64,000 bases of DNA from Ilex aquifolium (Eukaryota; Streptophyta; Magnoliopsida; Aquifoliales; Aquifoliaceae), in assembly GCA_951799425.1 (NCBI GenBank), contig OX637393.1, positions 18,743,744-18,807,743 on the forward strand. The letters are read 5' to 3'. Under the pieces are notes generated by a model that had not been told where the DNA came from, did not search any database, and saw nothing but the letters and a program-made list of their open reading frames with translations. Shown here one piece after another: positions 24,190 to 63,220 of this stretch. Position 1 is the first letter of the stretch, and the number at the start of each line of letters is the position of its first letter. The position numbers and the translations under genes are program-made.

Positions 24190-24230
24190 AGGCAAGTGTC
24201 AAATCAAGGAAGTGATTTCCGAACAACGGA

Positions 24231-29944: not shown

Positions 29945-32095
29945 TTGGGGGGTGAGGTGCACCATTTGTATGATACACCAAGGTTGTTTGGAATTTTTTT
30001 TTTTTATTTTTGCTTGCAATTGTGAAAAATAGGTGAAATTTTTGAAATTTTTTGATGAAAAAAATATCTAATTGTTGATCTGTATTCCTTCATGTTGTGC
30101 TTGCGTGAGTTGATGACATGTTGATCTTTGTTTTGAACTTTGTGCACATGAGTATTCTATGGAAGTGGATCCTATGCATGAGTATCATTTAGGTATTGAT
30201 TTTTGAACTCAACTGTATGTAACTCTTGAATGTGTAATTTTGGCAATTTACGGATTGGATTCATGTTTTTAAGCTTGACATAAGTAGTGGAGACGAGTAA
30301 AGACCCTTGAGAGCTTTAGTGCCAAATCCTTTTTGGAGGGAATTTACAATTACTCAAAGAACATTTTTTTTTTGTCAAGTTGTTCAATAGTCTCATTATG
30401 TTCGTGTTGGTTAATGCATTTGGCTAGTAGACTGATTTGTCTTGAACATATAATGCCCTCCCATGCGGACCTGGAAGTGATCTTAGGCCATCTTTGAATA
30501 TTTTGAGCCTTTAACCTTTTTCTTGTGCAAATATTATCCCTAGTGCCGTGATTGAGCTTAATTGGAATTCGTTTCTATGCCACACAATTGACCAAGCCTG
30601 TGAAAACAAGAAAGATATACCTTACCTTGGTTGTTCCTAAAAGCAGAAATGAGTGATTGCAAAAGTAAAGGATGTATGGTGTGGAAACCCAAACAAAAGG
30701 GATAAATGATGTTGAAACTCAAAGAATTCAATGGAAAAAGAATGAAAATCCAAGAAAAGGAAGAAAATGGGTGAAAGAAGAAAATAAAGAGAAAAAGAAA
30801 AGGAAATTGTTGAAAAGAAAAAAAAAATGGTGTAACGAAGAATGTGGTGACGGGGTGAGAATCAAAATCCCATGAAAAGGGAAGTGTTTTTCTAGAATAA
30901 AAGTCTCTCACTCGGAACAACCCTCTTTGTTATCCTATATCCTTCATTTCAATTTCCTAGATACCACCCCAAGGCCCTATTTTAACCCTTAAAGTCCTAA
31001 GTGATCTAGAGAAGTTGGGAGGTGCATATTTCAAAGGAAATGATGAGTTTAGTCTTACTACCTAATGCCCTAATATTCTATTCATGAGACTATGCCAAGT
31101 TCGCTTCATTTTCATTTGTTAACTTCATTTTTAGATTACATGTGGGCACACTTTGTTTTGAACATAAGACTCTATCTCACATGTACACATGGAGTGCATA
31201 CCAGGATAACTTGAGTGTATTTCATTGCTTAAGAGTGTCCCTTGGTGAGTTGTTGCATTGAAGCTGAATTTGTCCAATTTTTCAAATGTGAATCCTGTTG
31301 TGTAACTGTTCAAATTACTTGTTTAATTCACACACACACAAGTTGAAAATCAATGTTTAGGTGCATACTTTAGACTAGTATCTAAAACTATGGTTTTGCT
31401 CATGTTTGCCTAGTTCAATCAATTGAGAAATTTGTTAAGTAACTCAGGGCTTGCAACAATGAGGGAATACTGCTCAAGTTTTTGATATTTGGAAAGGATT
31501 AGAACTATGTGTGTTGTTTAAATCCATTTTTACATTTTGGGATACTCATTTTGATATTTAAAGAATAGAAATCCATTCCTTGGATGTTGAATGCATCAAA
31601 GTTTTAAATCACTTTGCAATTTTGAAATTAACTTGGGCATGATGGATCAAATTGTGGAAATTAAGTGGAGTACATCTTTTGGAAGGGAGTTGGAGTCACA
31701 AGTAATGTGAGGAAATGTCTAGGAAGGTCCTAAGCTGAATTGGAGTGGTGGTATGCTCAGTAGGAGGAGTCTGTCTGACAAAGCAGAACAGTACCGGTAC
31801 CGTATGGTACCGGTACTCAGTACCGGTACGCCAAACCTTCTGGAGTCGAAGTACCGGTACTGTATGGTACCGGTACTCAGTACCGGTACGATTTGTCTGA
31901 CACGAAATTTTTTTAGGGCTTTTTAATTTTAACTCCTCGTTAAACCCTTCATTTCCCCACTTCTATTCCTGCCCTATTCCTCTCTCCCTCACTCGAAAAC
32001 AATCCGAACTCCCAAAACCCTCTCCACTTCCCTCTCAATCCATAAAACCCCCTTTGATTTCGGCTTCTTTGGACAACCCTCATTGGATAATCTCA
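29945..32095 (+). other. Long conserved noncoding region between INT and ORF3 (element C)
   Basis: Starts with an internal PPT-like site (AGTTGGGGGGTGAGGTGCACC, 29944-29964) after 'cattgaggacaatgcatgg'. Further blocks shared with A-, B-, E- and partly F/G-type elements include 'caatttacggattg' (30245), 'ggaagtgatcttaggcca' (30472), a purine-rich tract (about 30715-30840), 'cctctttgttatcctatatcc' (30921) and 'acatgtacacatggagtgca' (31180). No conserved frame. It ends with the palindrome array at 31791-31889 before ORF3. Confidence 0.8.
31791..31889. repeat. GTACCGGTAC array upstream of ORF3 (element C)
   Basis: Six perfect copies at 31791, 31807, 31820, 31851, 31867 and 31880. The spacings 16, 13, 31, 16, 13 show two tandem 60-bp modules of three palindromes each. 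The flanks 'gcagaaca' and 'cgatttgtctga' are the same as around the LTR array. It lies about 210 bp before the ORF3 start. Confidence 0.95.
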
Positions 32096-33286
32096 ATGGT
32101 TCGCACCAAGAGAGCTGGACCAGGGCCAGAACCAGAGCCCAGTTCCCCTCCTGCCAAGGTCTCCTCCAGCCGCAAGAGAGGAGGCGAAGGGTCAAGTGAG
32201 GACCCAGAGGAGCTGAGGAAGAGGGCTAAGAGGGATGCCCGTCGCCAATTGATCGATGGTAAGGGTGTGACCTGTGAACGATTTTTGGATAAAATTTCCC
32301 TTTCCCCCATTCATCCCGTTGTGAAAATCATTGAGGGACATGGGATGCATTTCTGGTTCAAGGAGGTTGAGGGTTACAACCTAGCATTGGTGAGGGAGTT
32401 CTACCGTTCATTGAAATTAGTTGAGGTTGCTGTTGGGGAAGTTCTGAGAGTGAACATTAGGGGAAAGGTGTTTACAGTGACCCCTGATGTCATAGCCACC
32501 CTTCTTGGAGACTATCAGAGACCCCCATCTTCCCCACCTGTCTATCCCTACAACATGGGAAGAGCTAAGACCAAGGCGGAGTATGTCGATTTGATGTATG
32601 AGGATCCGGCTGAATTCAAGGGAGTGGTTCATAGTGGTGGGTTGAAGCATGTTTATGGGCTTCTAAACAAATTGCTTCATTATAACCTACTCCCAAGGGC
32701 TGCAGAAAAGAAACCAAACCTGGAAAAGCTGGCCATTCTGGATGCTGTTGTGTTGGGCAAAACAATCGATTTTGCCCTTGTCATTTGGGAAGTTATGAAA
32801 GACTTTGCCATCACAGAGAAGCCATTGACTAACCTGTCGTAAGGGAGCTTGGTTACCCGACTGTGTAACCATTTTAAGGTTAAGGGCTACGCATCAGAAA
32901 AACTCACTCCACCCGAGACTGGGGCCATAGGTAGGGCCAGTAGCCAAAAGAGGAGGGCTATGGGTCGTGGGGAGCGAGCTCAGCTTGAGTCTGATGAGGA
33001 CGTTGTACCAACTGCACCCACCATGCCATTCAAGCCTATTTCAGCACGCTCAGTCCCTAAGAGACTTAATGCACTAGAGACGACAGTGCATGGGATTGAG
33101 GCCTCGGTTCAGGGAATGATGGTGATGATGAAGGAGATGTACATGCACACATTCCCTGGGAGACCCATCCCAGAAGTTCCTACTGCTCCTTCAACCTCCA
33201 GGGTGAATGAGGATATGGAAGATGAAGAGGAGTCTGAGGAAGGGGAAGAATCAGAGGGTTATGAGGAAAAGAGTGATGGAGAGTAA
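32096..33286 (+). pseudogene. Element C ORF3 (putative plant transposon protein type), one stop
   Basis: MVRTKRAGP start; the sequence upstream in the same frame is not conserved. Basic N terminus (SSRKRGGEG, LRKRAKRDARRQ), globular domain (ERFLDKISLSPIHPVVKIIEGHG, VREFYRSLK, VNIRGKVFTVTPDVIATLLG, EDPAEFKGVVHSGGLKHVYGL), linker, heptad-like segment (RLNALETTVHGIEASVQGM) and acidic tail (EDMEDEEESEEGEESEGYEEKSD). An in-frame TAA at 32840-32842 splits it just before GSLVTRL. It occupies the env position but has no signal peptide or membrane helix. The charge layout suits a nuclear or chromatin protein, but the function is unknown. Confidence 0.78.
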
Positions 33287-33564
33287 GGAGTTCCTGTGCT
33301 AGTATAGGATTTTGAGTAGTTGGGGGGGGGGAGATTAGGCTATTTTGTTCTTTTTGATGACCTACTCCATTTTGTACTCCAACTTCGTTCACATTAATAT
33401 AAACCCACAATTGTTCCATTTTACTCACTTTCATGTTGTTACTTGCATTTTGATTGATTGAATGAATGATCATTGATTTGGATTGAATATGTGCTATTTT
33501 CTTTGTGTTGTGCTGGGGAATGAATCTTTTGCTAAGGGACTAGCAAAACCTAAGTTGGGGGGTG
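33287..33564 (+). other. Element C 3' untranslated region and polypurine tract
   Basis: Short AT-rich tail after ORF3 with a G-run (33322-33330). The PPT TAAGTTGGGGGGTG at 33551-33564 directly abuts the 3' LTR and follows 'aagggactagcaaaacc', which precedes the PPT in all these elements. Confidence 0.85.
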
Positions 33565-35248
33565 TGATTAGCACAAAACTTTGTATATTTTAAGGTGCTA
33601 ATCAGCTCATTTCACTTGTTTTTGAAGATTAAATGATAGGAGTTATGATGATTGAAGTCTTAACGTCAAAAATTTGTGTTTGCAGTTGAAAGGAGCTAAT
33701 TATGGTTTGTTAAGGCCCACCCATACCACTTGGGATGAAAGGAGATGAAAAGAGAACTTGGGGACAGCTCAGGAGCAAAGGAATCAGAAGTTTCAAACAA
33801 GGAGGCAGAACAGTACCGGTACTCAGTACCGGTACGCCAAACATTATGGAGTCGAAATACCGGTACTCAGTACCGGTACGCCAAACATTCTGGAGTCGAA
33901 GTACCGGTACTCAGTACCTGTACGATTTGCCTGATGAGCCCAGAGTCTGCAGATCTGCTCAGCTACTTCGAGGGTCCCACCATAGATGCCCCCACACTCC
34001 TCTGACACGCCCACAACACTGTTCATCAGGCCCACACCTTACTCTGCACTCTAGAGCTACAGCCTTAAAGGAAGAGAGAGAGAAGAGGAGGAGCTGGGTG
34101 TGTGCAGACCAATTCTGCACTCCCTTGTCCAGGTCATCCAGGCTACCCCCTACTGATGGGGGTCACTTCAAGGAGCTAGAGGAGCAGACCAGGCACGGTT
34201 TTGGAGGGAAAAAGCTCTCCAATGATCAGCATTCTTCCATAGCAAAGAGAGGCAGATAGAGAGGGAAGCTATGGGCGTAGAAGACGATGAATAGTAGTTT
34301 TAGAGAGAGAAAGTTGTGATTTCTGCATTTCTTTTACTGCATTGTCTTGTAATCAATGGTAGGAACCTTTATATCTTCAATGAATGTCATTAATGTCATT
34401 TTCCCTTATGTCATTGCTAGTTTAATGCTCCCATTTAAGTTCTACCATTAATGCTTTCAAAGTATTCATGTTTATAGATATAAAATAGATTTTCATTTCA
34501 TTCACTTCTAGTCTATGATTTCTTGCACTTAGTTACTTCAAAACTCCATATCCATACAATGCTTTATATTTACATTGTCATTTATATTTCAAGTATGAGT
34601 AGCTAACCCCTTTTTGTTGGCAAGACCAAGGGGAATCCTCATTTGGGTATATTGTTTCAACTCTTTCTACACCCTCCCTTTAGAGTCCCATGGTTCGGTT
34701 TGACCGGATTAAAGGTGGATGATTCGGTGAATCTTTGATAATCCGTAGGCCTAGTCACGGTTTATGCTTAGGCACTCACCAACATCATCCTCGGCTTTCC
34801 GTGAATCAACCGTTCATTCTTGCTCAATCGGAGGTGTGAGTTGAGTTGAGATAGTATACCCATTGGAGGGACCCCTTGGAATTGCCAACGCTTGTTCTCT
34901 CATTCTAATTTTACCAAAACACACTTCATCAAACAATTTCCAACAACAAGAATTTTACACTTTCTTTGCCCAAAATCACTTTCAAATTGGTTTACTTCCT
35001 TCCCCGTGGAAACGACCTTGGAATACCACCAAGTAAAAGACGACCCACGAAAGTCTCCTTGCGATTGGGGAGCATTTTTGTGCATTCACCTATCACATTC
35101 CCACTGACCTATTTCCTTTCCTATTGCCCTTTCTTTTCACACTATTCCAAAGGAGCGTGACCTCCCTTCCCGGTTGAATATACATCACACATACACCTTG
35201 GGGGATAGTATTTTAGGGGTTAGGAATAGGACTGTTTTTGCTCAATCA
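33565..35248 (+). repeat. 3' LTR of element C
   Basis: Same ends as the 5' LTR and 28 bp longer, because the palindrome array (33813-33923) has an extra 'tactcagtaccggtac...ggagtcga' unit. Two of its six palindromes carry point changes. The rest is nearly identical to the 5' copy. Confidence 0.95.
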
Positions 35249-35253
35249 GTATG

Positions 35254-35849: not shown

Positions 35850-36270
35850 CCTGTGCCTCTGCCTCTGCCTCCTTAGCGTCCAAGGCATCCTTCACTTCAT
35901 CGGTGTCTTGGGCCGGTGGCATATCCTATCTCGCTGCTAGGCCGCAGCTGTGACCTTGGCTCCTTTGGAAGGACGCCTTATTCAACGGTCCCATCAGCTT
36001 TTGCACTCCCATCTGTGGCCTCACTTGCACTCCCTAGTCCAAGCACATCTCCATCACAAGTGTACCGAAGGGGAGTGAATTCCTCTTCATATCACACCCC
36101 TTCATCATTTCCATCAAGATCAAGGACAGGAGGTCTATGCTTTAGCCCCTACCTATTTCGTATAGCAATCGGGCCATCTCCAGGAGTATCTAATTCTTAC
36201 ATCCGATGGGGGCAAGGTTCGAGACGGCAATCAAGTTTAACATTTTGTACTTGTCCGTCAATTCACCTTG
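35850..36270 (-). pseudogene. ORF3 fragment of another element
   Basis: Minus strand encodes the middle of an ORF3 of the F type: it begins GELTDKYKMLNLIAVSNLAPI near 36265 and continues to a segment matching the SFRRSQ...GG region of F (52715-52750). Both ends are cut by LTR ends: a plus-strand LTR ending at 35849 and a minus-strand LTR whose 3' end is at 36271. It is probably the host DNA into which both inserted. No function. Confidence 0.65.
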
Positions 36271-37532: not shown

Positions 37533-38222
37533 TGATGAGCATAAAATATTGTATATTTCAAGGCCTCATTACATGCATTTTAACTCAACTTTTGCATCTA
37601 AGTACTTAGAGTTAGCCGATTTTATGAATAATGTTGAATTCTCGATGTTGCATGTTTTTATAGCTTAAATCATGTATTTTAGGACCTTGCAACTATGTTG
37701 GATGTGTGGTGAGGGCATGGACACATTACATAAAGATTTGGAGGCTTAAAAGTGAAGAAATCAAGGAGGTATTGGTGCTTGGTAACAAAGGCGCCAGCAG
37801 CCACACCACTGAGTTGAAGAGCCTCGGTTTTCCTCCATTTTGACCATGATCCGCTTTGAATAAGAAAAATTTTCAAAACATGAACGTTGTAGATCTGGAT
37901 GTTTTCTGTATTGTGTCAAAATTTCAGCTCAATCCAACGGTTGGATCAAAAGTTATGTCGATTCTACGAAAAGTGGTGCGGAGCAGAAAACAGTACCGGT
38001 ACACAGTACCGGTACTATACCGTTCCGGTACTATACCGTACCGGTACTTCGAACTCCATAAGGTTTAGAGTACCGGTACACTCCCAAAACAGCCTAGAAG
38101 CGCCTGCAATCATGCTCCACTTGCTTGGGGGTCCCACCTACACTTCTCCCACACCTAGCCCGACATTTTATCCCTACAACAATGCCTCCTACACCCTACT
38201 TGAAGACATTTGGAGGCAATGG
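37533..38222 (+). repeat. 5' LTR of element E, left part
   Basis: TGATGAGCAT start, GTACCGGTAC-type cluster at 37993-38076, interrupted at AATGG (38218-38222) by a solo LTR. Confidence 0.9.
37993..38076. repeat. GTACCGGTAC cluster (LTR of E)
   Basis: Four clear copies plus one changed copy (GTTCCGGTAC). The corresponding cluster in the second LTR is at 44743-44840. Confidence 0.88.
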
Positions 38223-40057
38223 TGATGAGCACATAATATTGCATATTTGAAGGGCTAATTACATGCATTTTAACTCAACTTTTGCATATAAGTGCTTAGA
38301 AGTTAGCCGTTTTGAACTATAATGTTGATATTTTGATGTTGCAACCTTTTATAGCTTAAATGATTGATTTTAGGACATTGCAACCTTGATGGATGTGTGG
38401 TGACGGCATGGACACAATACATGAAGAATTAGAGGCTTAAAAATGAAGAAATCAAGAAGGCATTGGTGCTTGGGAACAAGGGCACCAGCTGCAGCAACAA
38501 TTGGAAGCACTGCCTCGGAATTCCTCCATTTTGACCAAGATATACTCATAATTTGTAAAATTGCAAAACATGAAAGTTGTAGATATTGGTGTCTTCTGTT
38601 TGGTGTCAAAATTTCAGCCCAATCCAACAGTTGGATCACAAATTATGCCGATTCTACCAAAAGTGGTCCAGAGCAGAAAAGAGCGTACCGGTACGCGTAC
38701 CGGTACGCTCCCTTGAAGCAGCCCCGATGCTCCTGCAACTCAGCCCCACTTGCTTGGGGGTCCCACCATCGATTCTCCCACGTTTCCCCTGACATTTTAT
38801 CCCTACAACCATGCCTCCCTTACACAAATGGAAGACTTTGGAGGTTTGGCATTGAATGAAGAGGAGAGAGAAGTGGGCTGCCATATGGGGTTGCAGGCTA
38901 GCCTGTCAAGACCCATCAACTCAGCCCCCTCTTGATGGGAGGCTTTGCACACACCTTGGGGGACCACCATGGACGAAAATGGATCTCTCTACACTCCATA
39001 CATTCAGCATTACACATGGGAGGAGGGTTGGCTACCTAAGCTTAGGAGTAGATGTAGAAAGCTCCAAGGTTGAAGATGATGAATAGTAATTTCATTTTTT
39101 CATTTTCTTCATCCATGTCATTGCTGTAAGCTACATTCCTCTTGTAATCTTCATTTCTTACATTGTAATCTCCTTTATTTCAAGTATATTGCAAGTTAAT
39201 TACATGTTCTTTATTTCACCATTTATGCTTTCAAGTTCTTCATTTTTAGCTTAAAATGGGTATTGAATGTTTTTATTCATAGCTTTAGATGTCTTGCTTC
39301 AAGTTTAGTTTCATGCTTTAAAGCTTCATTTCTATACAATGTCTTTCATTTACATTATGCTTGTCTTTCCTTTATGCATTTTTAATATGAGTAGCTAGGA
39401 TTTAAGTTGGTTAATCCAAGGGAAAATTCCTCTTGGGAATACCATTTTCAACTCTTCTTCATTCCTCCCTTTAGAGTCAAATGGTTCGGTTTGACGGGGT
39501 TGAGAGTGGATGAGTTGGTGAGCCTTTGATATTCCGTAGGCCTAGTCACGGTTTATGCTTAGATACTCACCAATCTCGTCCCTAGCTTCCCCCGAATCAA
39601 TCGTTCATTCATGCTCAATCGGAGGAAGGCTTTGAGTTGATTTGGTATTCCCATTGGAATGAACCCTTTGGATTAGCCAACACTTGCTTTATTTGCATTT
39701 TCATTCACAAACCAAACACAAAATTCAAATACAAGATTTTACACTTTCTTTTCACTTTTGCAAAATCACTTTCACAAAACTCTCTTTCCTTCCCTGAGGA
39801 GACGACCTTGGAATATTTTCCAAGTAAAACACACGACCACAAAAGACTCCTTTCGATTGGGGAGCATTTTTGTGCACACCGCATGTCATTTCATACATTT
39901 TGTTCATTCCACAATTCCATCCACCACCATTCCGTTGTTGCCTAATCTTTTGCATCATTCCGAGTGAGAGTGACACTCACCCATTCCTATAAGCCATACA
40001 CACATTTAGGGATGATGTTTAGAGGTTAGGATACAACAACGTTTTTCCAATCAATCA
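38223..40057 (+). repeat. Solo LTR, 1835 bp, with AATGG target duplication
   Basis: TGATGAGCAC...CAATCA flanked by AATGG at 38218-38222 and 40058-40062. On both sides the LTR of E continues as in the uninterrupted copy at 44975-44995. It has two GTACCGGTAC copies (about 38685-38708). A solo LTR forms when the two LTRs of an inserted element recombine. Confidence 0.93.
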
Positions 40058-40062
40058 AATGG

Positions 40063-41272
40063 CATTAATGAAGAGGGGATTGAAGGGGGCTGCCAGGGGA
40101 GTTGCAGGCTAACCTTCTCCTAGCCTGTCCAAGCTTCAACTCAGCCTCCTATTGATGGGAGGCCTGCACACAGGCTAGGGGGACCACCATGCACGAAATT
40201 TGAAGGCAAACACACCATATATTCAGCATTCACAAGACATTGAAAGGGTGGCTACCTAAGCTTAGTTTTAGTTCCATGTAGAAGATGATGAATAGTGTAA
40301 TGTAAGTTTATGTTTTTGCATTTTCCTTTCCATTTCAATTGTTGTAAGCTTTAAACCTCTTGTAATCTTCATTCCTTGCACTTTAATCTAAGTTGTTTCA
40401 AGTTTATTCCAAGTTTACTTGCATGTTCTTCATTTCACCATTGTTGCTTCAAGTTTTCGTCATTTCAACTTTTAAAATGGGTATTGCATATTTTCCTTCA
40501 TAGCTTTAGATTTATTGCTTCAAGTTAAGTTTCATGCTTTAAATCTTCATTTCTCTACAATGTCTTTCATTTACATTATGCTTGTCTTTCTTTTATGCAT
40601 GAGTAACTAGCTTTTAAGTTGGTTAATCCAAGAGAGAATTCCTCTTGGGTGTGCCACTTCAACTCATTTTCATTCCTCCTCTCAGAGTACGATGGCTCGG
40701 TTTGATTGGGTTGGGGTGAGGACATGGTTGTGAGTTCTTGATACACCGTAGGCATTGTCACGGGGTATGCTTGAATCCTCACCTCCATTTTAGTCCCGAG
40801 CTTCCCACGAATCAATAGTACTTCTAGGCTCTATTGGAGGAAGGCTTGAGTTGATTTGGTATTCCCATTGGAATGACCTTTTTTGGATTAGCCAACAATT
40901 GTTTTCTTGCATTTCCATTCACAAACACAACCACAAAACTCAAACAAAAGATTTTTCACTTTCTTTACCTTTTGCAAAATCACCTTTACACAACTTGAAC
41001 TTCCCTTCCCTGAGGAGATGACCTTGGAATACTTTTCAAAGTAAAACACCGACACACAAAAGACTCTTTGCGATTGGGGAGCACTTTTGTTCACACACCC
41101 ACATTTCATTTCATTTCACATTTTGTTCATTCCATTTTCCACCAATCCGTTGTTGCCTAATCTCTTGCATCACCCCGAGGGAGAGTGACACTCCCTTTCA
41201 CACATAAGCCATATACACATGTCAAATGGTGATATTTAAGGGGTTAGGAACAACAAGGTTTTTGACCAATCA
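40063..41272 (+). repeat. 5' LTR of element E, right part
   Basis: Nearly identical to 44989-46198. Contains the hairpin block 'cctcctattgatgggagg' (about 40146) and ends ...GACCAATCA directly before the PBS. No gene. Confidence 0.92.
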
Positions 41273-41275
41273 TTT

Positions 41276-41293
41276 TGGCGCCGTTGCCGGGGA
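41276..41293 (+). other. Primer binding site of element E (first copy)
   Basis: TGGCGCCGTTGCCGGGGA, tRNA-Asp type, after a TTT spacer. Confidence 0.92.
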
Positions 41294-41333
41294 AGGTTGA
41301 GCGTCGAGTTCGGAGGTGATTTTGGGCGGCATG

Positions 41334-41359
41334 GTAAGTCTCGTGATTTTCATCACGGG
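41334..41359 (+). promoter_or_regulatory. GGTAAGT and leader hairpin (element E, first copy)
   Basis: CTCGTGAT, loop TTTC, ATCACGGG at 41340-41359: the stem of C with one C-to-T change that still pairs as G-U in RNA. Preceded by GGTAAGT at 41333-41339. Confidence 0.65.
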
Positions 41360-41401
41360 CCAAGGTATGTCGTTTCTTTTGTAAATATTTTGTTTTAGTT
41401 T

Positions 41402-42235
41402 GTGTTTTGTATTATGTCTTATAATTTTTATGAAAATGTATCAAATGCCCCATATTATGAAAATGTGTGTGAGATTTGTGATGACTATGGGCTCATCTCT
41501 TGTATGTGCCCAATAAATTATCCGGTTCAAGACTTTGCATGCGAAGGTTCAAATTCATTTTTGGCCTCCAAAAATTTTTACCCCAACCATTATGATACCC
41601 CGAGTTATTCGAGTTATGGTTGGGAGAATGAACCTTATAATGTTTCATCCAATCTCACACCACCAAATGAATTTTCCCAATATCCAACATACGGGAACTC
41701 AACCGAAGAAGAATTGGAAAATATTTGGTGCGATTTTATGCAATACCAAATGGAATTCAATGCCCAAATAACCCAACAACTTGATAAATTGACTAATGCT
41801 ATTATTGCTATGCATGAAGAACAACACCTTGAGCATAGTCAATGTATTGAGGTTGATCATCCCAATGAAATGCCTATTGATGTTGAATCTTCCACCACTC
41901 TTGTTTGTGAAAAATTTAATGAAGTTATTATCGCACAAGAGGCTAATGAGCCCAAGGTCATTTTTCCATATATGAGTGGTGTTGAGATTCACATTTCTCA
42001 ACTTGGGAAGGGCATTGAAAAGGAGTTAAGTGTAGAAACTTTTAAGGAGAAATTGTATACTCCATTGTTGGGATTGCATAAGCTTGCCTACACTTCTATT
42101 TTGTTGAGATTTTTGACTTCTTATCCTTTGTATTGTTGGATAGATGGGTTAGTAAGGGCATTTATACAACAAAAAAATATTAAAACCAAAAAAATCAATG
42201 GGCGCACGCTCAAATCCGAATTGAAGCCGGATTGA
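41402..42235 (+). CDS. Element E ORF: truncated gag, nucleocapsid part only
   Basis: 277 codons; MSYNFYENV at codon 5 is an alternative start. The protein aligns in order with the C-terminal third of gag of B and C. CEICDDYGLISCMCP matches the zinc knuckle region, with the three cysteines kept and the histidine replaced by Leu. A Tyr/Pro/Asn-rich section (YDTPSYSSYGWENEP) matches YNSGYRDHPNFSWRNENP. EELENIWCDFMQYQMEFNAQITQQLDKLTNAI matches the LEDVIHAFIQSQTTFNKDITAQLTKITNHI segment. The last 130 residues have no clear counterpart. The capsid core, protease and polymerase are absent. It may bind RNA or join particles made by a partner; this is inference. Confidence 0.72.
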   Translation: MFCIMSYNFYENVSNAPYYENVCEICDDYGLISCMCPINYPVQDFACEGSNSFLASKNFYPNHYDTPSYSSYGWENEPYNVSSNLTPPNEFSQYPTYGNSTEEELENIWCDFMQYQMEFNAQITQQLDKLTNAIIAMHEEQHLEHSQCIEVDHPNEMPIDVESSTTLVCEKFNEVIIAQEANEPKVIFPYMSGVEIHISQLGKGIEKELSVETFKEKLYTPLLGLHKLAYTSILLRFLTSYPLYCWIDGLVRAFIQQKNIKTKKINGRTLKSELKPD

Positions 42236-46198: not shown

Positions 46199-46201
46199 TT
46201 T

Positions 46202-46285
46202 TGGCGCCGTTGCCGGGGAAGGTTGAGCGTCGAGTTCGGAGGTGATTTTGGGCGGCATGGTAAGTCTCGTGATTTTCATCACGGG
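46202..46285 (+). promoter_or_regulatory. PBS and leader hairpin of element E (second copy)
   Basis: PBS TGGCGCCGTTGCCGGGGA at 46202-46219, and hairpin CTCGTGAT/TTTC/ATCACGGG at 46266-46285, identical to the first copy. Confidence 0.9.
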
Positions 46286-46327
46286 CCAAGGTATGTCGTT
46301 TCTTTTGTAAATATTTTGTTTTAGTTT

Positions 46328-47110
46328 GTGTTTTGTATTATGTCTTATAATTTTTATGAAAATGTATCAAATGCCCCATATTATGAAAATGTGTGTGAGA
46401 TTTGTGATGACTATGGGCTCATCTCTTGTATGTGCCCAATAAATTATCCGGTTCAAGACTTTGCATGCGAAGGTTCAAATTCATTTTTGGCCTCCAAAAA
46501 TTTTTACCCCAACCATTATGATACCCCGAGTTATTCGAGTTATGGTTGGGAGAATGAACCTTATAATGTTTCATCCAATCTCACACCACCAAATGAATTT
46601 TCCCAATATCCAACATACGGGAACTCAACCGAAGAAGAATTGGAAAATATTTGGTGCGATTTTATGCAATACTAAATGGAATTCAATGCCCAAATAACAC
46701 AACAACTTGATAAATTGACTAATGCTATTATTGCTATGCATGAAGAACAACACCTTGAGCATAGTCAATGTATTGAGGTTGATCATCCCAATGAAATGCC
46801 TATTGATGTTGAATCTCCCACCACTCTTGTTTGTGAAAAATTTAATGAAGTTATTATCGCACAAGAGGCTAATGAGCCCAAGGTCATTTTTCCATATATG
46901 AGTGGTGTTGAGATTCACATTTCTCAACTTGGGAAGGGCATTGAAAAGGAGTTAAGCGTAGAAACTTTTAAGGAGAAATTGTATACTCCATTGTTGGTAT
47001 TGCATAAGCTTGCCTACACTTCTATTTTGTTGAGATTTTTGACTTCTTATCCTTTGTATTGTTGGATAGATGGGTTAGTAAGGGCATTTATACAACAAAA
47101 AAAATATTAA
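46328..47110 (+). pseudogene. Second copy of the element E gag-derived ORF, broken
   Basis: Almost identical to 41402-42235 but with TAA at 46673-46675 where the first copy has CAA (Gln), so the frame splits into 115 and 144 residues. Near its 3' end one extra A in the A-run at about 47096 changes the last residues. It otherwise keeps the zinc-knuckle-like and helix segments. Confidence 0.85.
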
Positions 47111-47269
47111 AACCAAAAAAATCAATGGGCGCACGATCATATCCGAATTGAAGCCGGATTGACATGAGCCTATTTTGTTTTCATGTACATAGTAGTTAGA
47201 TTTCTTTTATTGTTATAGTTTTATTTTCATAAATGTTGTAGTGTAGATTTTAGCATGAAGGTTGTTTAC

Positions 47270-49325: not shown

Positions 49326-50011
49326 GTAAAGTTATAAACAAAGAGAAATAAACGTTAACTTATACATGCATTGGTAAATCATCCAATAAACAAAGTGAAA
49401 TAAACGTTAAGCATTAGAACAGAGCACAAATATAATTCTCAGATAACTTATACATGCCCTTCTCCTCTTACTAAAGAGTGAATGAGAAACTACTCACTCT
49501 TCATGGCTTTGGTAAAGCTAGAAAAGTGAGTGATGCTCATCCCTCTAAGTAGAAGACTTAAAAGATAAAATAACAATGAACGAGGAGCCAATCTTTAACA
49601 AAAATTGAGTGAATCACGTTCCACCCTTCACGGCTTTGGTAAAGCTCTAGAAAAGTGGAAGAGTTTCACTCTTCTAAGAAAGAAAGAAGCTCAAGCAATG
49701 GAAGTGAAGTACATAAACAATAAAAGTAGAAGAAAGCTAGTCACATTTGGAGGGTGGCTTCCTCAACCAAGAAATGGAGGGTTGCTTGCTCAACCAAAAG
49801 ATGAACTAACTCCCTTCTATGCATGTAAATGAAAGCAAAAACATAAAAGTACTCTTATAACAAACAAGGAGATGTTGGACTAAAGCCAAACTAATCTCTA
49901 AAATAAAGACTTCATACAAGGAAAACATAAGCTTAAATCTACAATGTGAGTGGGAGTCTAAGTCTCCATCAACCCTTCTACTTGGCTCTCTTAGCTCTCC
50001 AACAAAGGGAG

Positions 50012-50020
50012 TATTTATAG
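50012..50020 (-). promoter_or_regulatory. TATA box in the LTR of F
   Basis: CTATAAATA on the minus strand, about 90 bp downstream of the nearest palindrome. The same site in the other LTR is at 55259-55267. Confidence 0.7.
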
Positions 50021-50109
50021 GCAAGAGGAGGAGACAAGAGGAGGTAAAGGAATAGTGTATGCCGCTCAAGTCCAAGTGAAAAGCCAACCACTCTGCTGCC
50101 AGTTTGTGG

Positions 50110-50462
50110 AGAACGTTCGAACGTTAGTTGGCGTTCAAACGTTGTTTCTATTTTTGCACTAAGGTCGTTCGAACGTTGATTGTTGTTCGAACGTTTCTTC
50201 TGTTTTTGCACTAATGGCGTTCGAACGCCAGATGTGTTCTGACCCTTTCACTCGAGTGATCTGTTGGTCTTCTGTGTAGTTCAGTTCCAACTCTATGCAG
50301 TAGTCTGGTCTTCAATCAACTCAAGTGCACGTTCGAACGTGAGTTGGCGTTCGAACGTGACACTCAAGTGCCTCAGAGCTTCAGTCTTCTTTTCTAACTG
50401 CAACACACATTCTCTTAGCATTTGAGTCTGCTACAGTGCAATGTGGACGTTCGAACGTTCTG
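50110..50462. repeat. CGTTCGAACG palindrome cluster (3' LTR of F)
   Basis: About eight CGTTCGAACG-type sites, often paired with a short 'tagttgg' or 'gagttgg' spacer (for example near 50112 and 50331). The equivalent array in the 5' LTR is at 55358-55722. Confidence 0.9.
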
Positions 50463-50642
50463 GCTGTGCTCCAAGTTTTTCCAATTTTGGGCTCTAATGT
50501 GCTGGTGTTGCATCCAAGTGTGGTAGTTGTTGTTCTTGAGTCCTTCTTCAGTTTAGGGCCTGAAATGACATCACTTAAACTCCATCATAGTACAATTAGT
50601 CTTAAAATGGCATAGTAACATGCTAACTTTAAGTGCTAATCA

Positions 50643-52464: not shown

Positions 52465-53569
52465 TCACTCTCCTCTAGGTCTGCTAGCTCCACCTCTCAA
52501 AAGTCCAAGGATCTCCTCCTGCTGTCGGAGAATCCTGTCTTGGTTGGCCTCAATGCCAATCATAATGTCTCTCAGTGATCTCCGACTACTGGTGTTGGGA
52601 CCTGCCTCCTGTGGCAAATCTCTCTCTCTCTCTCCATCTCTCTCTCCTCCATCTCATCAAGCTCCTCTTGTACCTCATCCACTCCGTGGGCAGGGGGCTC
52701 TTCTTGTCTTGCCGCTGGGCCGCCACTATGACTTTGGCTTCTCCGGAAGGAAGCCTTGTTCAGTGGCCCCATCGGCTTTTGGATTTCCATCTCGGGCCTC
52801 ACCTTGATCCCATTTTCCAAGCACATTTCAGTCACCAAAGTAGCAAAAGGGAGTGCACTCCTCTTTACATCACACCCATTCTTCATTTCATTCAGGATGA
52901 GAGAGGGGAGGTCGATGCTATGTCCTTTGCCAATTGCATAAAGTAGACGGGCCATGTCGAGTAAAATCTCACTCCTTCGTCCTATGGGAGCGAGATTAGA
53001 CACCACAATTAAGTTTAGCATTTTGTATTTATCGGTGAGCTCCCCCTGTTTTAAAAACCTCCGCCTATCCCATGAAAAATCAGTCATCCCTGTCAATTCT
53101 CTCCCAACCCTATTCAACGGTTCATTCTTCCTTGGAGGGTATGTCGGGTTTTGTACCCGAGCCACTTCTTGCCTTATTTCCTTAATATACTCTTCACTCA
53201 CATTAATGTGGGCTCCCCTCACGTATGTTCGGATTGCGCCATTGATGATCTCGGCGTTGGAGTAAAACTCCCGCACCAAGTCAACAACGAATCTCCCCCG
53301 TTTCACAAAAACCACACCCAATTCCTCCTCTCCATCTCCGCCAATATTCTCAATTCCGCAAAATCAGTAATCACAATATCTCTTTCACATACTACTGCAT
53401 GATTTTGGAAGAAGTTTTCATACCTTTCTGCCTTAAGAGCACTGGGGAATCGTGTTCGATCGAATCTTTTCACCACTGGTCTCCCTTCCCTTTCTTCAAT
53501 CACCTCTTCTACAAAATTAGGCTCCTGATTGATCAGGTTTCGCCTGGCAGGTAGTTTAACTCTAGGCAT
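52465..53569 (-). pseudogene. Element F ORF3 with two frameshifts
   Basis: Start MPRVKLPARRNL at 53569. N-terminal basic and Glu-rich part to about 53310, where the frame shifts; then DLVREFYSNAEIINGAIRTYVRGAHINVS, GRELTGMTDFSWDRRRFLKQGELTDKYKMLNLIVVSNLAPIGRR, GKGHSIDLPSLILNEM and a Pro/Gln/Glu-rich tail. A second shift falls in the CT microsatellite (about 52620-52640), after which the minus strand continues with RDIMIGIEANQDRILRQQEEIL to a stop at 52465-52467. The same domain order is seen in G. There is no membrane segment. Function unknown. Confidence 0.75.
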
Positions 53570-53786: not shown

Positions 53787-53795
53787 CTTTTATAG
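53787..53795 (-). promoter_or_regulatory. TATA box of a probable internal ORF3 promoter (element F)
   Basis: CTATAAAAG on the minus strand, about 20 bp downstream of the nearest CGTTCGAACG palindrome and 220 bp upstream of the ORF3 start. The palindrome-TATA order matches that in the LTR of F. Confidence 0.65.
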
Positions 53796-53808
53796 CCTGA
53801 GTCGTGAC

Positions 53809-53977
53809 CGTTCGAACGTTTGTAACGTTCGAACGTGTCTAGAAGGATTTTAAGCAGATCGTTCGAACGTGGTTTGGCATTCGAACGTGGTGAGTTCTCA
53901 GTACTTTTGAGTTCTGTCAAAGGCCAAAGTGCTATAGGTTCTCTTTGTTCGAACGTTCTATTGGCGTTCGAACGTTA
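53809..53977. repeat. CGTTCGAACG cluster upstream of ORF3 (element F)
   Basis: Six sites near 53809, 53826, 53860, 53879, 53947 and 53966, the last four arranged as pairs about 19 bp apart, as in the LTR. Confidence 0.92.
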
Positions 53978-53988
53978 ATCTCGAAATG

Positions 53989-55907
53989 TGTACACCCAAG
54001 TGCAGGCGGTCAAGCATAGTAATAATCCGGTATGAGTCCGGAGTCGAATCCATAGGGAACTTACGTTGGTGTTTTTGAGATAAGCAGTGGTGGAGACCTA
54101 TCGTTTATGACCTTTGCGATTTGTTGAGAGAGGTGAGATTTCCTGGACATAATATAAGATTCTTTCCAAGAGAAATTTCTTAACAAAACAGGAGATAAAT
54201 GCTAATGAAAAAGGGTCACTCTTTAGTTCAAGGATCTGGACATGTAGTTAATTATCCGGTTTATTATATTTGTGCTTGATAACTCAATTAACTCCCGTGT
54301 CAACAGCAAGTTAATCGGAAGATAAAGATGGACTGTGAGAATTAAGAACATGATTTCGATATCTTTCTAGAAGTTTACAAGAATTGTCTGTGCCGAGACT
54401 AACCCGTCTACAAACAAGCAAGTGTTTCTACAAGACACCCAATCATGATATTAATATTCCATTCTTTAAATGAAGCTCAATAAGGGGGAGGATTGAAGGG
54501 TAGTCCTGAAGATCTAGCCGGGGTGCTTGCCTTGAACCGATGAGTCTTTATATGCAAGAGTCATCCATATCATAGAAAGAACCCACGATTATAAAAAGTA
54601 CCTTAGCTTTGCTAGATGCAATCAATCATCCAATAAACAAAGAGAAATAAACGTTAAGCATTAGAACAGAGCACAAATATAATTCCCAGATAACTTATAC
54701 ATGCCCTTCTCCTCTTACTAAAGAGTGAATGAGAAACTACTCACTCTTCATGGCTTTGGTAAAGCTAGAAAAGTGAGTGATGCTCATCCCTCCAAGTAGA
54801 AGACTTAAAAGATAAAATGACAATGAACAAGGAGCCAATATTTAACAAAGATTGAGTGAATCATGTTCCACCCTTCACGGCTTTGGTAAAGCTCTAGAAA
54901 AGTGGAAGAGTTTCACTCTTCTAAGAAAGAAAGAAGCTCAAGCAATGGAAGTGAAGTACATAAACAATAAAAGTAGAAGAAAGCTAGTCACATTTGGAGG
55001 GTGGCTTCCTCAACCAAAAAATGGAGGGTTGCTTCCTCAACCAAAAGATGAACAAACTCCCTTCTATGCATGTAAATGAAAGCATAAACATAAAACTACT
55101 CTTATAACAAATAAGGAGATGTTGGACTAAAGCCAAACTAATCTCTAAAATAAAGACTTCATACAAGGAAAACATAAGCTTAAATCTATAATGTGAGTGG
55201 GAGTCTAAGCCTCCATCAACCCTTCTACTTGGCTCTCTTAGCTCTCCAACAAGGGGAGTATTTATAGGCAAGAGGAGGAGATAAGAGGAGGTAAAGGAAT
55301 AGTGTATGCCGCCCAAGTCCAAGTGAAAATCCAACCACTCTGCTGCCAGTCTGTGGAGAACGTTCGAACGTTAGTTGGCGTTTGAACGTTGTTTCTGTTT
55401 TTGCACTAAGGTCGTTTGAACGTTGATTGTCGTTCGAACGTTTCTTCTATTTTTGCACTAATGGCGTTCGAACGCCAAATGTGTTCTGACCCTTTCACTC
55501 GAGTGATCTGTTGGTCTTCTGTGTAGTTCAGTTCCAACTCTATGCAGTAGTCTGGTCTTCAATCAACTCAAGTGCACGTTCGAACGTGAGTTGGCGTTCG
55601 AACGTGACACTCAAGTGCCTCAGAGCTTCAGTCTTCTTTTCTAACTGCAACATGCCTTCTCTTAGCAGTTGAGTTTGCTACAGTGCAATGTGGACGTTCT
55701 AACGTGAGTTGGCGTTCGAACGTTCTGGCTGTGCTCCAAGCTTTTCCAATTTTGGGCTCTAATGTGCTGGTGTTGCATCCAAGTGTGGTAGTTGTTGTTC
55801 TTGAGTCCTTCTTCAGTTTAGGGCCTGAAATGACATCACTTAAATTCCATCATAGTACAATTAGTCTTAAAATGGCATAGTAACATGCTAACTTTAAGTG
55901 CTAATCA
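53989..55907 (-). repeat. 5' LTR of element F
   Basis: On the minus strand it runs from TGATTAGCAC at 55907 to ...GTGTACA at 53989, 1919 bp. TATA box CTATAAATA at 55259-55267; CGTTCGAACG array at 55358-55722. Directly internal to it lies the promoter region of ORF3 instead of a PBS and gag, so about 6-7 kb of the ancestral element has been deleted. Confidence 0.8.
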
Positions 55908-57412
55908 ACCACCTTACATCAATTAACTTACATGTTACTGGCAAGTTAACCGGTAGGTCTGATGTATATAAACCATCACACAACAAGTTCTTAGGTTAGT
56001 TGGTGGTATCCATGACATTTGATTAATCCAAGCAAACCAGAAGGACAAGCCATTCATGAGGAACACTTGAATTATTCAATTGATCTCTTGATAGTAAGTG
56101 CGTACATAATAAACCATAACACAGCAAATTCTTAGGCTAGCTGGTGATATTAAGTCATAACACATCAACTTCTTAGGTTAGTTGGTTATAGATGTGCCAA
56201 TTGACTAATTCGAGTGAACCAGAAGGACAAGTCATTCATGAGGAATACTTGAATTACTCAATAAGTCATCTATGATATATATATACCAGTTGAACATCCT
56301 CAGGGTTCTGGTGGAGGACAAGCCACACCGATAGGAATACCGTAGATATTCGACTGGCAATACAGTTATATATAGTAGTTAAACAACCCTAATAACCTAG
56401 AAGGACAAACCATTCATGAAGATCATTTAGGTTTTGTACCATGCATCAGTAGAACATCCTCAGCGTTGCAGTAGAGGACAAGCCATACCGATAGGAACAC
56501 CGTAGATATTTAATCGGCAGGTTGATGATGCACTAATGACATAATTCTAGGCACAACACCGAAATTACGTACATCACTGTATCATGTATAAAGCATATAA
56601 TACATATATAAATAAATATATGAATAAAATATCAGCATTTCCAGAGGTTAACCAATATTATACATATGTTTACCTCTCACTGGAGGATATAAGTAACTAC
56701 TCACGCCCCATTGCTACAGACAAGCAAGGAGTGCGGGCAGTTTCCATTACAACTGAAATTAAAATACAAACTCTAAAACTTCTTCCACAAGGAACAACTA
56801 AAACACAACCACTTTTATTATCTGAATAGAATGATAATCAAGACAAAAAAGTGGCAGCAGTTCAACTATCCGAATAGAATGATACAACAGAAATGTAGAA
56901 ATACATAATATCGGTTGGAGTGTATCACGGACCGGATTGAATTGCACTTTCTCTTTCTCTCTTTCTTTTTCTCTTTCTTTTTCTCTTTTGGAATTCTCTC
57001 AAGAGCTCTATTTCTCTCCTTCCCCGACCAAGTGAAGAAGAAGGCCATGCATGGCCTATATATAGAAAAAAGAAGCAGGAGGTGGAAGGATAAAGCTCAG
57101 CCGCCAAGGGCCACCGTCCAGACGCCCCTCCACCATCCAGACGGTGGAGCCTTGCTGGAAATCAAGCTGATGTGTTGACTCTTGTTTTGTGTATTTTACA
57201 CTTTGCTCCTTTGTTGTTTCAAGCTTTGACATATCATTCCTCATATTCTTCGGCAATTCCGCATTAAACCCTGAAATTTTAAACATAACGCAATTAAAAC
57301 CCTAATTTACGCACAAACCCTAATTGACTCTAATTGATAGTTTTTAATTATTTTATCATATTATTTTGGCTTATTTAACTATTCTAATTTACATACTAAT
57401 TAGGGTTAATCA
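55908..57412 (-). repeat. 3' LTR of element G, truncated
   Basis: On the minus strand it starts TGATTAACCC at 57412 next to the PPT and is cut by the LTR of F at 55907/55908. TATA box at 57056-57065; CCGTCCAGACG-type sites at 57114-57147; GA-rich leader (56945-56995 as CT). About 180-bp repeats around 'agaaggacaagccattcatgagga' occur near 56038, 56219 and 56398. No gene. Confidence 0.8.
57056..57065 (-). promoter_or_regulatory. TATA box in the LTR of G
   Basis: CTATATATAG, itself palindromic, about 50 bp downstream (minus strand) of the CGTCCAGACG sites and followed by a GA-rich leader. Confidence 0.7.
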
Positions 57413-59155: not shown

Positions 59156-62100
59156 TCACAGTAGCCTCAAGATTTCAGCTTGATTTTGTTCATATTCATC
59201 CATGGGTTTGTTGATCTGAGTAATGCTGGTCTCCATTCCTAGCAAAATTTGTCTATCAGTTCTGTAATCTACCAGTATGTTTGGCTGATCCTCTTGTGGC
59301 TGTTGTTGTTCTTGTGGGAAGAATTCTTCAGGAGGTTGAAATGGCTCCTCTTGTGGTTCAGGTGGTGCTTCAGGTTGGTCTTCCGGTTGTCCTCCATGAC
59401 TCTTTTTTAATGAATTTTTATCCAATGCTCCAAAATGGTCCACTGTCTTCCATATAGGATCAATGATCACACCATCATTCCTGCATAGCTGAGAAAATAA
59501 TATAGCATATGGGAGTGATGGTTTCTTTCTATCCACAACAAGTATCATTTGGTCCATGATTAAGTTCGGCAAGTCAATTGTGTGTCTCATCCCAAATGCA
59601 TATAAGAAATAAGTCTGCTCAGTATAAATTTGATTCTTTTGGGCTCGGGGTAGCAAACTGTAAACCCCCACATGCTTATATTAATATATTAATGTACTTA
59701 TTTAGTGATTCTTATATATGTAATGACGTAAAAATAAAATAAACATTGCATATGAACAGTGCACGTGAACAGTGCACTAGCTGCAACTTCAAGCCCAATT
59801 TCGACCTTGATACAGTCAATATCTCTCAAAACTCAAAACATGGAAGTTGTAGAACTCTTTCTTAGCGTTCCATATCATCTTGAATCACCTCAACCGGAGC
59901 TCGGATGAGAGAGTTATACCCAGATAACGAAGCGATGTCGAAACAGTCCGGCAGACTACCTTTCACCAATTTGATCATAACTCTTTGTTGGAAAGTCCAA
60001 ATTGCGCACCGTTATTTTTGTTAGAACCCTAACTTGTATATATTTCCAACCATATAGGTCACACATACTAGAAATACCTGAGTCAAATCATTTTATTCTC
60101 CGAAGTTGACCAAAAATCTGCACTATGGTGTTCCTTGGATAGTAATTTTAATGTTTCGAGTGTAAATTTATTTTAGTTTGAAATAAATCATAAAAATGAA
60201 TGTTTTTAGGTTAAAATAACATTAAAAATGAATCCGGAACGTCGAAAAACCTTAGGGTAGTCATATGGATCAAATTGGAGATTCTTAGTGGCAAAACCGT
60301 AAATTTGGAGAAACCCAAAACAGCCTGTGAACAGTGTTTTTCGGGGCTGCTATGTATAAACTCATTTTCATCTCATTTGCCCTCATTTCTTTCACTCCCC
60401 TCACACCCCCACACCTTTTGGAACCCTAGAGAGCATTAGAGAGGAAGAAAGGAAGGAAAAAAACAAGAGATTCAAGGGTGATTCAAGATCAAATCTTCAT
60501 CTTCTTCACACTAAACCTAGGTTTTCAAGAACATTGAGGTAGGGTTTTCTTCCATTCTTGTCCATTGATGTTAGGGTTATTATACATGTAGAATTTGGCT
60601 CTTAATAGTATGTATTTGTTATGGGTTCCTTGTTCCTTGGTATGTTTACAAACATTCACATGATTTGAACAAAATGATGGTTGGAAATCCATCAAACTCT
60701 AGTTTTTTGCGGAAATATGGATTTTTCTCTATATCTTCACATCATTTTGATTTCGAAAATTCTAGAACTTTGTGTTGGGTAGTAAAATGATTGTATTGAT
60801 GATCTCATGCTTATTTCCTTTAAACTTGTCTCTTGTAACATGATTTGCGAAATGGGTATGTTTTCTTAAATTGTTCTATTATGTATCTTGCTTGTGAAAA
60901 TTGGGGAAAATCATGGAATTTGCTTGTATATGAGGTTGAGTATATTTTTGGTATGTCACTCTTGTGTATGGTGTTGTGAGGGACTTGGATTACCTTCGAG
61001 AGATGCCGTAGAGTGTTAGAGGTTAGTCTATCCCAGTGGGGGTGAGATGGTTGCCTAATGCTCGTAGTGGATTTTTGTTGTGACCGCGATCACTATTGTT
61101 CACATATATATCGAGGAAAAGGGTTAGTATACTAGACACCTTGGGAGGATCTCGTCAATGCCGTATGAGACGGTACACGCCCTTCCTAAATTGGTCTGTG
61201 ATTGTTAGTGGAAATGGGTGAACGAGGTAGAATCGTCGGGTAGATTCATGAGAAGCGACAACCTACTTGAGTGGTACCAAATAGAAATTATTGTTCATTG
61301 TACCAAATATTATTTCTCCAAGAGTTTCGGGTAGTATGGGATGCCGCGATAACTTGTGGAAATGGTGTATGGTGGAGTGGATTATGTAGGAAATTGTTTG
61401 TCAATTAAACGTGGTTTTATTCTCTTTCAATTCCTTATTATTGTACAAACTTGAGATCTCTTTTAAAATGTCCTTATTTTATTTCAAAATTCATTTATAT
61501 GTATGGGCGAAACGTGACCTACCTGGTTTACTTGATTTCAAAACCTTGAATGGGTTTGGAAGGATCCTTCTACAGAGCCTTGTGCTCACCCCCCCTACTT
61601 CCCCACCTTTCAGATTTTGCCTTTGACGAGGAGTTGGGAGTCGAGGGGCCGACACATTGGGAGACTCCGACAGAAGGGAGCGTGGATCCCGAGATGGACG
61701 CTTAGAGCGACCCCCCCGTTCTTTTGTTATAGACTTGGATAATCTTTTGGGAGAATTGTATAGCCTAGTTTTATTTTGTAAATTCCGCTGTGTATTATAG
61801 TACTTTTGTGGGGATGTAAAGGCCATAGCTTGGCCTATTCTTTTGGGATAACATGTAAATTTGATGGATTGATTTTATGGTAGTTAAATGGACCCGGTGT
61901 GGTCATTACAGTAGAATTGCACAGGTTGTGTTTTGGGTAGAGCTCCCCAAACAAAGGAGACTCTGCCCGAATTTTGTTAAATTAAGGACCCCCGGTTATT
62001 TATGGATTTATTAGTTACTCTCATGATATGAATGGTTATTGAATGTAATACCGTCCAGGGTGGTATTTGGGGCGTTACACAAACTGTTAACTGTTATCAA

Positions 62101-62661
62101 ATTGAGAATTTTGTATTTGTCTATCAGATCTCCTTGCTTTATATATTTATTTGGTCTACCCCAAACAAATTCTGGATTACCCATTACTTCCCTTCCTATG
62201 ACATTCAAATCAGGTAATTCAGTATAAGGATATTGTGGGTTCTCTTGTCTTTGCATGGGTTGAAAAAAATTGACTATAGTAGCCAGTGTAACTTGAAAAA
62301 CAATACCCCGTACGAACACACGCAATTGTCTTTCTCCAATTATCTCAGCATTACTATAAAACTCACGAACTAAACAGTCATAGGCAGGAGCAGATAATCT
62401 AACATAATGTAACCATCCTCTTGCATCAAGGATTTGTCTTTCTCCTATATTCTCAAAATCTTCATAAATAACTGGCCGTTCAGAAATGATAGTTTTAGTC
62501 AGAAAATTAGTATCATACCAGGCCTGTTGTTCAAAATTTTCAACCATCACCTCATTGAAGATATTTCCCTGTTCAGGTTATTGTGGAGGTGCTTGAGATG
62601 GTGGAGGTTGATCCCTTTGTGCCAGACTTGAAGATCCTCTTGTTCTTCATCTCGAATCCAT
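59156..62661 (-). pseudogene. Element G ORF3, split by a solo LTR and two stops
   Basis: Exact start ATG at 62661. The early part is Ser/Gln/Pro-rich with stops TGA (62647-62649) and TAA (62578-62580), followed by VENFEQQAWYDTNFLTKT, CLVREFYSNAEIIGERQLRVFVRGIVFQVT and DLIDKYKILNLITVNSL. Here a 2421-bp solo LTR interrupts the gene. Across it the frame resumes as LLPRAQKN, FGMRHTIDLPNLIMDQM, a Gln/Pro/Glu-rich tail and a last helix (DEYEQNQAEILRLL). If the insert and one CAAAC copy are ignored the two parts share one frame. Same family as ORF3 of C, D and F; function unknown. Confidence 0.78.
59659..62079 (+). repeat. Solo LTR of a different Ty3/gypsy family, 2421 bp
   Basis: TGTAAACCCCC...GGGGCGTTACA with inverted ends TGTAA/TTACA, flanked by CAAAC at 59654-59658 and 62080-62084. 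Unlike the Athila-type LTRs it has no CG palindrome array. Orientation (+) is inferred from a TATA-like 'atgtataaac' near 60350 followed by a CT- and GA-rich leader. The ends resemble Tekay/Del-type chromovirus LTRs, but this is from general memory only. No coding frame. Confidence 0.88.
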
Positions 62662-63220
62662 GTTTTTCTTGATTTCTCTTCAAATACTCCGTTTCAACTG
62701 ATTTCAATCGGTAGTTATCTTCAAAATGTGATGGGTAAGAGAATAATTGGAGCAGATTTGACGAAAAACCGTTGACTGTAGCAGATTTGAGAGCTCTTCC
62801 TTGGAAACTTTCGGCTTTTTCGAATTTTTGGTTGCGAGGGAGTGTAAAACTGATCGGTCTTGCATGGAGGAAGTTTATATATTGAGGACTGCCGTCCGGA
62901 CGCCTGGCCCACCGTCCAGACGATGCTATCTTGCTGGTTTTTTGGGTTTGCACACTGCAGGCTGCTGTTCTGAGTTTTTGTAATTTGTTCCTTTGAATTC
63001 CTACAGTAAACAAAATTAAATACAACTTTATATATTCTACAAAACTTTGTTAACCACTCTTTTTCTTTTCAAAAATTGGTTTTTTTTATTCTTTATTTGT
63101 TATTTCTTATTTACTGAGTTTCCTAATTAATTTATAGTTATTTACATTTATTTACAATTATTACAATTATATATATTCATAATTATGTACAATTCTTCCA
63201 AAAATTCATATCTCATTTGA
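62662..63220 (-). promoter_or_regulatory. Probable internal promoter region of ORF3 (element G)
   Basis: On the minus strand two CGTCCGGACG-type sites (62893-62902 perfect, 62912-62922 CCGTCCAGACG) lie just upstream of a TATA box AATATATAAA (62874-62883), about 215 bp before the ORF3 start. The LTR of G has the same palindrome type before its own TATA box. The rest (62930-63220) is AT-rich without features. Confidence 0.65.

Follow-up and report, generated by a model that had tools for sequence, protein, structure and literature searches.

The role of the extra 'env-like' gene of Athila retrotransposons has been called unclear in print (PMC7264820), and the closest described systems come from several kinds of mobile element. 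In Sireviruses (Ty1/copia), Bousios et al. (2010) reported element-specific palindromes clustered in the long terminal repeat (LTR) upstream of the TATA box, with a second set ahead of the env-like gene (and a CGG-CCG signature in 12/13 of the motifs), found four env-less elements to be without internal palindrome copies, and proposed an internal promoter (PMC2829016). In the Arabidopsis element Athila6A, Panda et al. (2016) defined start sites, open reading frames (ORFs), an intron and a promoter proper to the ENV ORF (PMC4977677). The VANC proteins of VANDAL transposons (Hosaka et al. 2017) bind short motifs that are specific to the family, frequently stand in tandem and lie in non-coding regions of the element itself; they diverge together with these motifs and have an experimentally established anti-silencing activity (PMC5735166). 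In foamy viruses an internal promoter drives the element-encoded activator Tas, which in turn acts on that promoter and on the LTR (PMC12789967). Here we describe a window (the whole stretch of DNA analysed) of 64,000 nt from Ilex aquifolium (OX637393.1; source genome 800 Mb), which is packed with nested Ty3/gypsy elements of plant type (by Pfam domain order), and in which four families (C, D, F and G) carry a gene, ORF3, that is preceded by palindromes recurring in the LTR of the same family. The elements are presumably of Athila type, a name that leans on ORF3 and on their structure.

The sharing of one palindrome between the LTR and the region upstream of ORF3, as put forward in the original prediction, was recovered in all four window families and lies far above chance: the regions tested held 1-9 palindromes where 0.00-0.02 were expected (at most one mismatch; two for D), and the comparison of pre-ORF3 regions with LTRs gave same-family matches in 4/4 cases and cross-family matches in 0/12. 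In element C (22513-35248, plus strand; flanked on both sides by the 5-bp target-site duplication GTATG), six copies of GTACCGGTAC (31791..31889, spacings 16/13/31/16/13) end 207 bp before the ATG of ORF3 (32096..33286; PF20167, E 4e-16; one in-frame stop at 32840), and the same word forms arrays in the 5' LTR (22513..24168; array 22761-22843, spacings 13/31/13/16) and in the 3' LTR (33565..35248; array 33813-33910, 4 exact copies and 6 with one mismatch allowed, spacings 13/31/13/31/13), the LTR pair being 96.9% identical. The window holds 29 GTACCGGTAC (shuffle mean 0.02), divided into 5 in the C 5' LTR, 6 before ORF3, 4 in the C 3' LTR and 14 elsewhere. Element F (minus strand) shows the same layout with CGTTCGAACG, which occurs 16 times in the window and in no shuffle: 6 exact copies in the 5' LTR (54624..55907, inner end approximate), 6 in the 3' LTR (49377..50642, outer end approximate), and 4 exact (6 with one mismatch allowed) in the array (53809..53974) that lies 240 bp from the ATG of a PF20167-like ORF3 (52572..53569; frame broken, 3' end approximate). 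In G (minus strand), the pair formed by CGTCCGGACG (62893-62902) and CGTCCAGACG (62913-62922), 20 bp apart from start to start (62893..62922), precedes by ~232 bp (by reading) the ATG of an ORF3 (59156..62661, boundaries by eye) that is split in two by a ~2.4 kb insertion (~59690-62090), and the 3' LTR (56430..57412, end approximate) has one exact CGTCCAGACG (57115-57124) together with one two-mismatch copy; CGTCCRGACG is more frequent in the window than in every shuffle. Family D (plus strand) has a single pre-ORF3 palindrome, CCTTCCAGAAGG, 394 bp from the ATG of ORF3 (19788..20996; PF20167, E 5e-13; one in-frame stop), which sits within 22 nt that recur exactly, in inverted orientation, in the D LTR (E 5e-8); the first part of its 3' LTR (21318..22512, interrupted by element C) contains CCTTCCGGAAGG at 21567 followed by degenerate copies (6 sites with at most 2 mismatches), and CCTTCCRGAAGG exceeds its count in every shuffle. 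The D site, formerly put at 19381, occupies 19383..19394.

The pairing extends to the architecture of the arrays. Neighbouring palindromes keep distances that are characteristic of the lineage and similar at both sites (C 13/16/31; F 17-19 and 34; G 20, with 19 in the window G LTR when two mismatches are allowed; and 23 in lineage 377, a lineage found outside the window). A common helical phasing at 10.5 bp was rejected (Rayleigh p 0.38 for spacings 11-39 and 0.14 for 11-119) in favour of lineage-specific spacing, in a spacing set that pools related copies and in which small p values at other periods are not independent. When nine-letter words shared by the pre-ORF3 region and the U3 (unique 3') part of the LTR were counted for six lineages (C, D, F, G-like, 377 and H), the true pairing gave a total of 158, the best of 720 arrangements (mean 43.5, next 130), and with the palindromes masked in five lineages (not H) 3-6 shared words remained in each. 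The arrays are furthermore placed in front of TATA boxes in three lineages: before ORF3 the box starts 11-14 bp past the last palindrome in the window copies of F (TATAAAA, 14 bp) and G (TATATAA, 11 bp), in the G-like copy L057 and in the lineage 377 copy L055, and in the LTR 50-64 bp past it in window G (TATATAT, 50 bp), L057 and L055. A TATA box after the array had been claimed for F and G in both places, and this stands, the box of the F LTR (~100 bp past the array) having been seen by eye (the scripted scan covered 53 bp there). No TATA box was found within 180 bp before the ORF3 of C or D, in the C LTR, or in the 126 bp examined of the D LTR.

Copies outside the window were drawn from a PF20167 search of the genome (6,661 first-look candidates, 150 scored) and from an F-like query (6,236 candidates, 145 scored); we examined 20 of the 24 best PF20167 places, plus a few loci from other groups. 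Four of the 20 loci (L041, L047, L049 and L052), in which the pattern located no LTR start, were left uncounted, as were L001-L004 and the ten of the short loci (L005-L034, n=30) that fall outside the 20, and L062-L065 were covered on the pre-ORF3 side only. In these copies the predicted correlation between ORF3 type and palindrome type holds. Three F-lineage copies, with ORF3 74-81% identical to that of window F, carry CGTTCGAACG at both sites together with a TATA box. Within the F lineage, divergence is lower in palindrome columns than in other columns, both before ORF3 (0.132 vs 0.167, four copies) and in the LTRs (0.048 vs 0.083, five LTRs), and CpG retention is higher in the palindromes (69/80 vs 9/16 before ORF3; 111/120 vs 12/15 in LTRs), these differences being modest and the copies related. 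The G-like copy (L057, LTR L060) has two palindromes at each site, and in lineage 377 (L055, LTR L059) eight CGTCCGGACG sites precede ORF3 and four lie in the LTR (one mismatch allowed in both cases); a 10-bp core is common to the 377 and G palindromes. As five 13-bp spacers of lineage 377 are only 31-62% alike, spacing is kept there without spacer sequence. Thirteen listed places of the L055 family score identically (open frame of 377 aa, 111.5 bits, E 1.8e-29), pointing to a recent spread of the family.

Lineage H departs from this strict pattern in the form of its words. The half-site CAGCGC is present at both sites in 15/16 copies with both regions located (L043 being without a pre-ORF3 half-site), and full palindromes at both sites are confined to 2/16 copies for CGCCTAGGCG (one mismatch allowed) and 3/16 for CAGCGCTG; the sharing of perfect palindromes as a general H trait was ruled out, the full words being present in 5/16 copies. 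Copies L038 and L046 have ORF3 domains that are 80% identical and flanks that align at both sites (67-89%), and their array blocks do not align, save for one 24-bp match in U3, as though the arrays of both sites had been built anew around a common half-site. At L041 an H palindrome is present downstream of ORF3. Among the loci covered on the pre-ORF3 side, L062 and L064 have G-like palindromes, L065 a degenerate one and L063 CAGCGC-type sites. At L058 the LTR position is occupied by other sequence.

Basic and acidic ends had been regarded as a trait of ORF3 in general. A strongly acidic tail is found in the ORF3 of C, D, P0001 and L036 and is absent in L055 and L057, and because of these two copies the use of acidic/basic ends as evidence for an activator was dropped. 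The suggestion that ORF3 itself is the binder gains support from the predicted structure of one ORF3, whose fold is VANC21-like, VANC21 being a DNA-binding transposon protein. A second, poorer ORF3 model did not reproduce this match: VANC21 is missing among the first 50 of its 152 Foldseek matches. DUF1985 is present in VANC proteins; an hhalign comparison of 22 ORF3 rows with 4 DUF1985-type rows gave a co-linear alignment over 112 columns at a probability of 2% (P 0.02; the same with A3). Sequence searches of the PDB returned no ORF3 relative (for P0001 two weak matches; for the A2 profile nine, likewise weak and mostly to coiled-coil stretches), and a comparison of the C ORF3 fragment with viral contigs found none. 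The aORF of a sunflower Athila element likewise matches PF20167 (PMC11728184).

The 14 GTACCGGTAC outside element C fall (by coordinates) in LTR-type stretches of copies where no ORF3 was found (37533-49104; 8070-10438), with exact words in LTR stretches only and none in internal parts, in agreement with the absence of internal motifs from env-less Sireviruses (PMC2829016). These LTRs are akin to the C LTR (87% alike in their first 31 bases and 69% in a downstream stretch of 593 columns), and in U3 it is mainly palindrome-bearing pieces that align, many of them inverted. The idea that they have only the palindrome in common with C was dropped, the LTRs being related beyond it. It is possible that such ORF3-less copies are hitch-hikers on the C regulator.

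We lean, with modest confidence, towards reading ORF3 as a VANC-like DNA-binding protein that regulates both its own promoter and the LTR, acting through the family palindromes in a positive loop. Each ORF3-bearing Athila-type family would have its own palindromic operator arrays in the LTR U3 and in a separate promoter directly before ORF3; ORF3, as a putative sequence-specific DNA binder with a VANC21-like predicted fold, would probably bind the family palindrome pairs at both places and would keep or make both promoters active (by removal of silencing and/or recruitment of transcription), leading to a positive self-loop of ORF3 and to raised LTR transcript. The data show the paired arrays with their lineage specificity and matched spacing, the TATA boxes of three lineages and the predicted fold of one ORF3; that ORF3 is the binder, that the direction is activation or de-silencing, and that the ORF3 promoter is transcribed in this genome are inferences. 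The earlier proposal of an ORF3 promoter sharing the LTR operator is borne out in part, as a promoter-like array that has its operator in common with the LTR; the TATA box was not found in C and D. A host transcription factor might instead bind the palindromes, giving the same input (e.g. stress, germline) to both promoters while lineages drift between sites; such a factor would be in keeping with the reported resemblance of Sirevirus palindromes to stress-related host sites (PMC2829016), binding by ORF3 being itself a prediction. We consider it unlikely, in view of six lineages within one genome whose words or half-sites differ (apart from the core common to 377 and G) and which are each matched at their own two sites, of the related H copies L038 and L046, in which the array differs at both sites (the short U3 match aside) between alignable flanks, and of the predicted fold match of one ORF3 to a DNA-binding transposon protein.

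The pre-ORF3 arrays could also be pieces of LTR that arrived by conversion or template switching and were homogenised by recombination, with no regulatory role. Two cases look like copying: in C a 54-bp stretch, non-palindromic flank included, is 98% alike between LTR and pre-ORF3 region, and in L057/L060 the pair of the LTR, spacer included, reads letter for letter as the reverse complement of the pair before ORF3, an inverted copy between both promoters. On the other hand, palindromes and their spacing persist where the spacers differ (377, in part also F), divergence is lower in the CpG-rich palindromes than in their flanks, arrays stand 11-14 bp from a TATA box in three lineages, and the window copies without ORF3 have the exact palindrome in LTR stretches and never internally, so that we regard copying without function as rather improbable. 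Since ORF3 is annotated as a transposon protein inside a retroelement, and DNA binding alone leaves its purpose undefined, ORF3 might bind the palindromes for a non-transcriptional end (such as a mark that guides integration, the handling of cDNA or retention in the nucleus); arrays situated in three lineages just before the TATA box and the ORF3 start, and not at element ends, together with an anti-silencing factor as the closest match to the predicted fold, make this very improbable in our judgement.

Beyond these arrays, element C has a primer-binding site (24172..24189, plus strand; pattern match TGGCGCCGTTGCCGGGGA) three bases past the LTR and plus-strand gag-pol frames split into several (24315..29944), with matches to gag, protease, reverse transcriptase (RT), RNase H and the integrase zinc-binding domain; the integrase core was matched in a minus-strand frame (13287-14381) homologous to C, and the pol order in the C frames and the homologous minus-strand frames is protease-RT-RNase H-integrase (Pfam). 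A relic of an F-like ORF3 (35929-36267, minus strand) matches 52707-53027 at 74% of DNA positions. An LTR relic on the minus strand (~10440-11526), which can be aligned in part with the G LTR around 56391-56991, has CCAACCTTTCGAAAGGTTGG and a degenerate copy (11162-11267) near the TATA-like CTATTTATAG, a further palindrome type. Another private type belongs to the LTR of a further family (5983-6117, minus strand), with three CCTACCGGTAGG-type palindromes and one CCTTCCGGAAGG, and a site resembling a primer-binding site at 4726-4743. Loci L056, L061 and L066 were by eye not Athila-like in appearance; in L056 an antisense frame resembling a SWIM-type Mu-like element (MULE) transposase (by eye) has an open PF20167 protein as its neighbour (861-2006, 2996-4000), and no palindrome array was seen in the stretch examined. 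The domain of ORF3 may thus not be confined to retrotransposons and could be associated with DNA transposons too, in which VANC proteins are known.

The new type of control that had been suggested is not new in every respect, given Sirevirus palindromes (PMC2829016) and the Athila6A ENV promoter (PMC4977677): the two-site palindrome layout and an Athila ENV promoter are already known. Sireviruses resemble the window families in having palindromes in the LTR and before an env-like gene, and differ in belonging to Ty1/copia, whereas the domain order here is that of Ty3/gypsy; a binder, a fold and matched spacing are not described in the part of PMC2829016 consulted. Athila6A shares with the proposed ORF3 promoter the separate ENV promoter of an Athila element, and the part of PMC4977677 consulted describes neither palindromes nor an operator shared with the LTR. 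VANC, which offers a molecular precedent, is linked to one ORF3 by the predicted fold match, but is carried by Mu-like DNA transposons, whereas in the Ty3/gypsy element C the place of ORF3 is downstream of pol and ahead of the 3' LTR; moreover, YAGTATTAY, the motif of VANC21, is non-palindromic (PMC5735166), and VANC anti-silencing rests on experiment, whereas the role of ORF3 is read from sequence and a predicted fold. Tas offers by analogy a precedent for the circuit (an internal gene product driving an internal promoter and the LTR) in an animal retrovirus, the comparison with ORF3 being drawn at the level of the circuit. In the literature searched, outside which most subscription journals lie, we recognised nothing linking Athila ORF3 to VANC, and nothing on matched palindrome codes and spacing across Athila families.

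Tentatively, and with confidence a little short of even, we propose that the long-debated Athila 'env-like' ORF3 is a sequence-specific anti-silencing activator of VANC type and not an envelope gene, that the family palindromes are address codes in the LTR and the ORF3 promoter, both of which ORF3 would open, and that code carriers without ORF3 ride along. If ORF3 proves to be a DNA-binding protein that regulates, family by family, its own promoter and the LTR, the Athila env-like puzzle would become testable, and the palindromes of Sireviruses, the internal promoter of Athila6A and the anti-silencing of VANC would join as one selective silencing-escape strategy of plant transposons; if it is of VANC type, LTR retrotransposons would possess an anti-silencing system in which code and reader diverge together within one genome.

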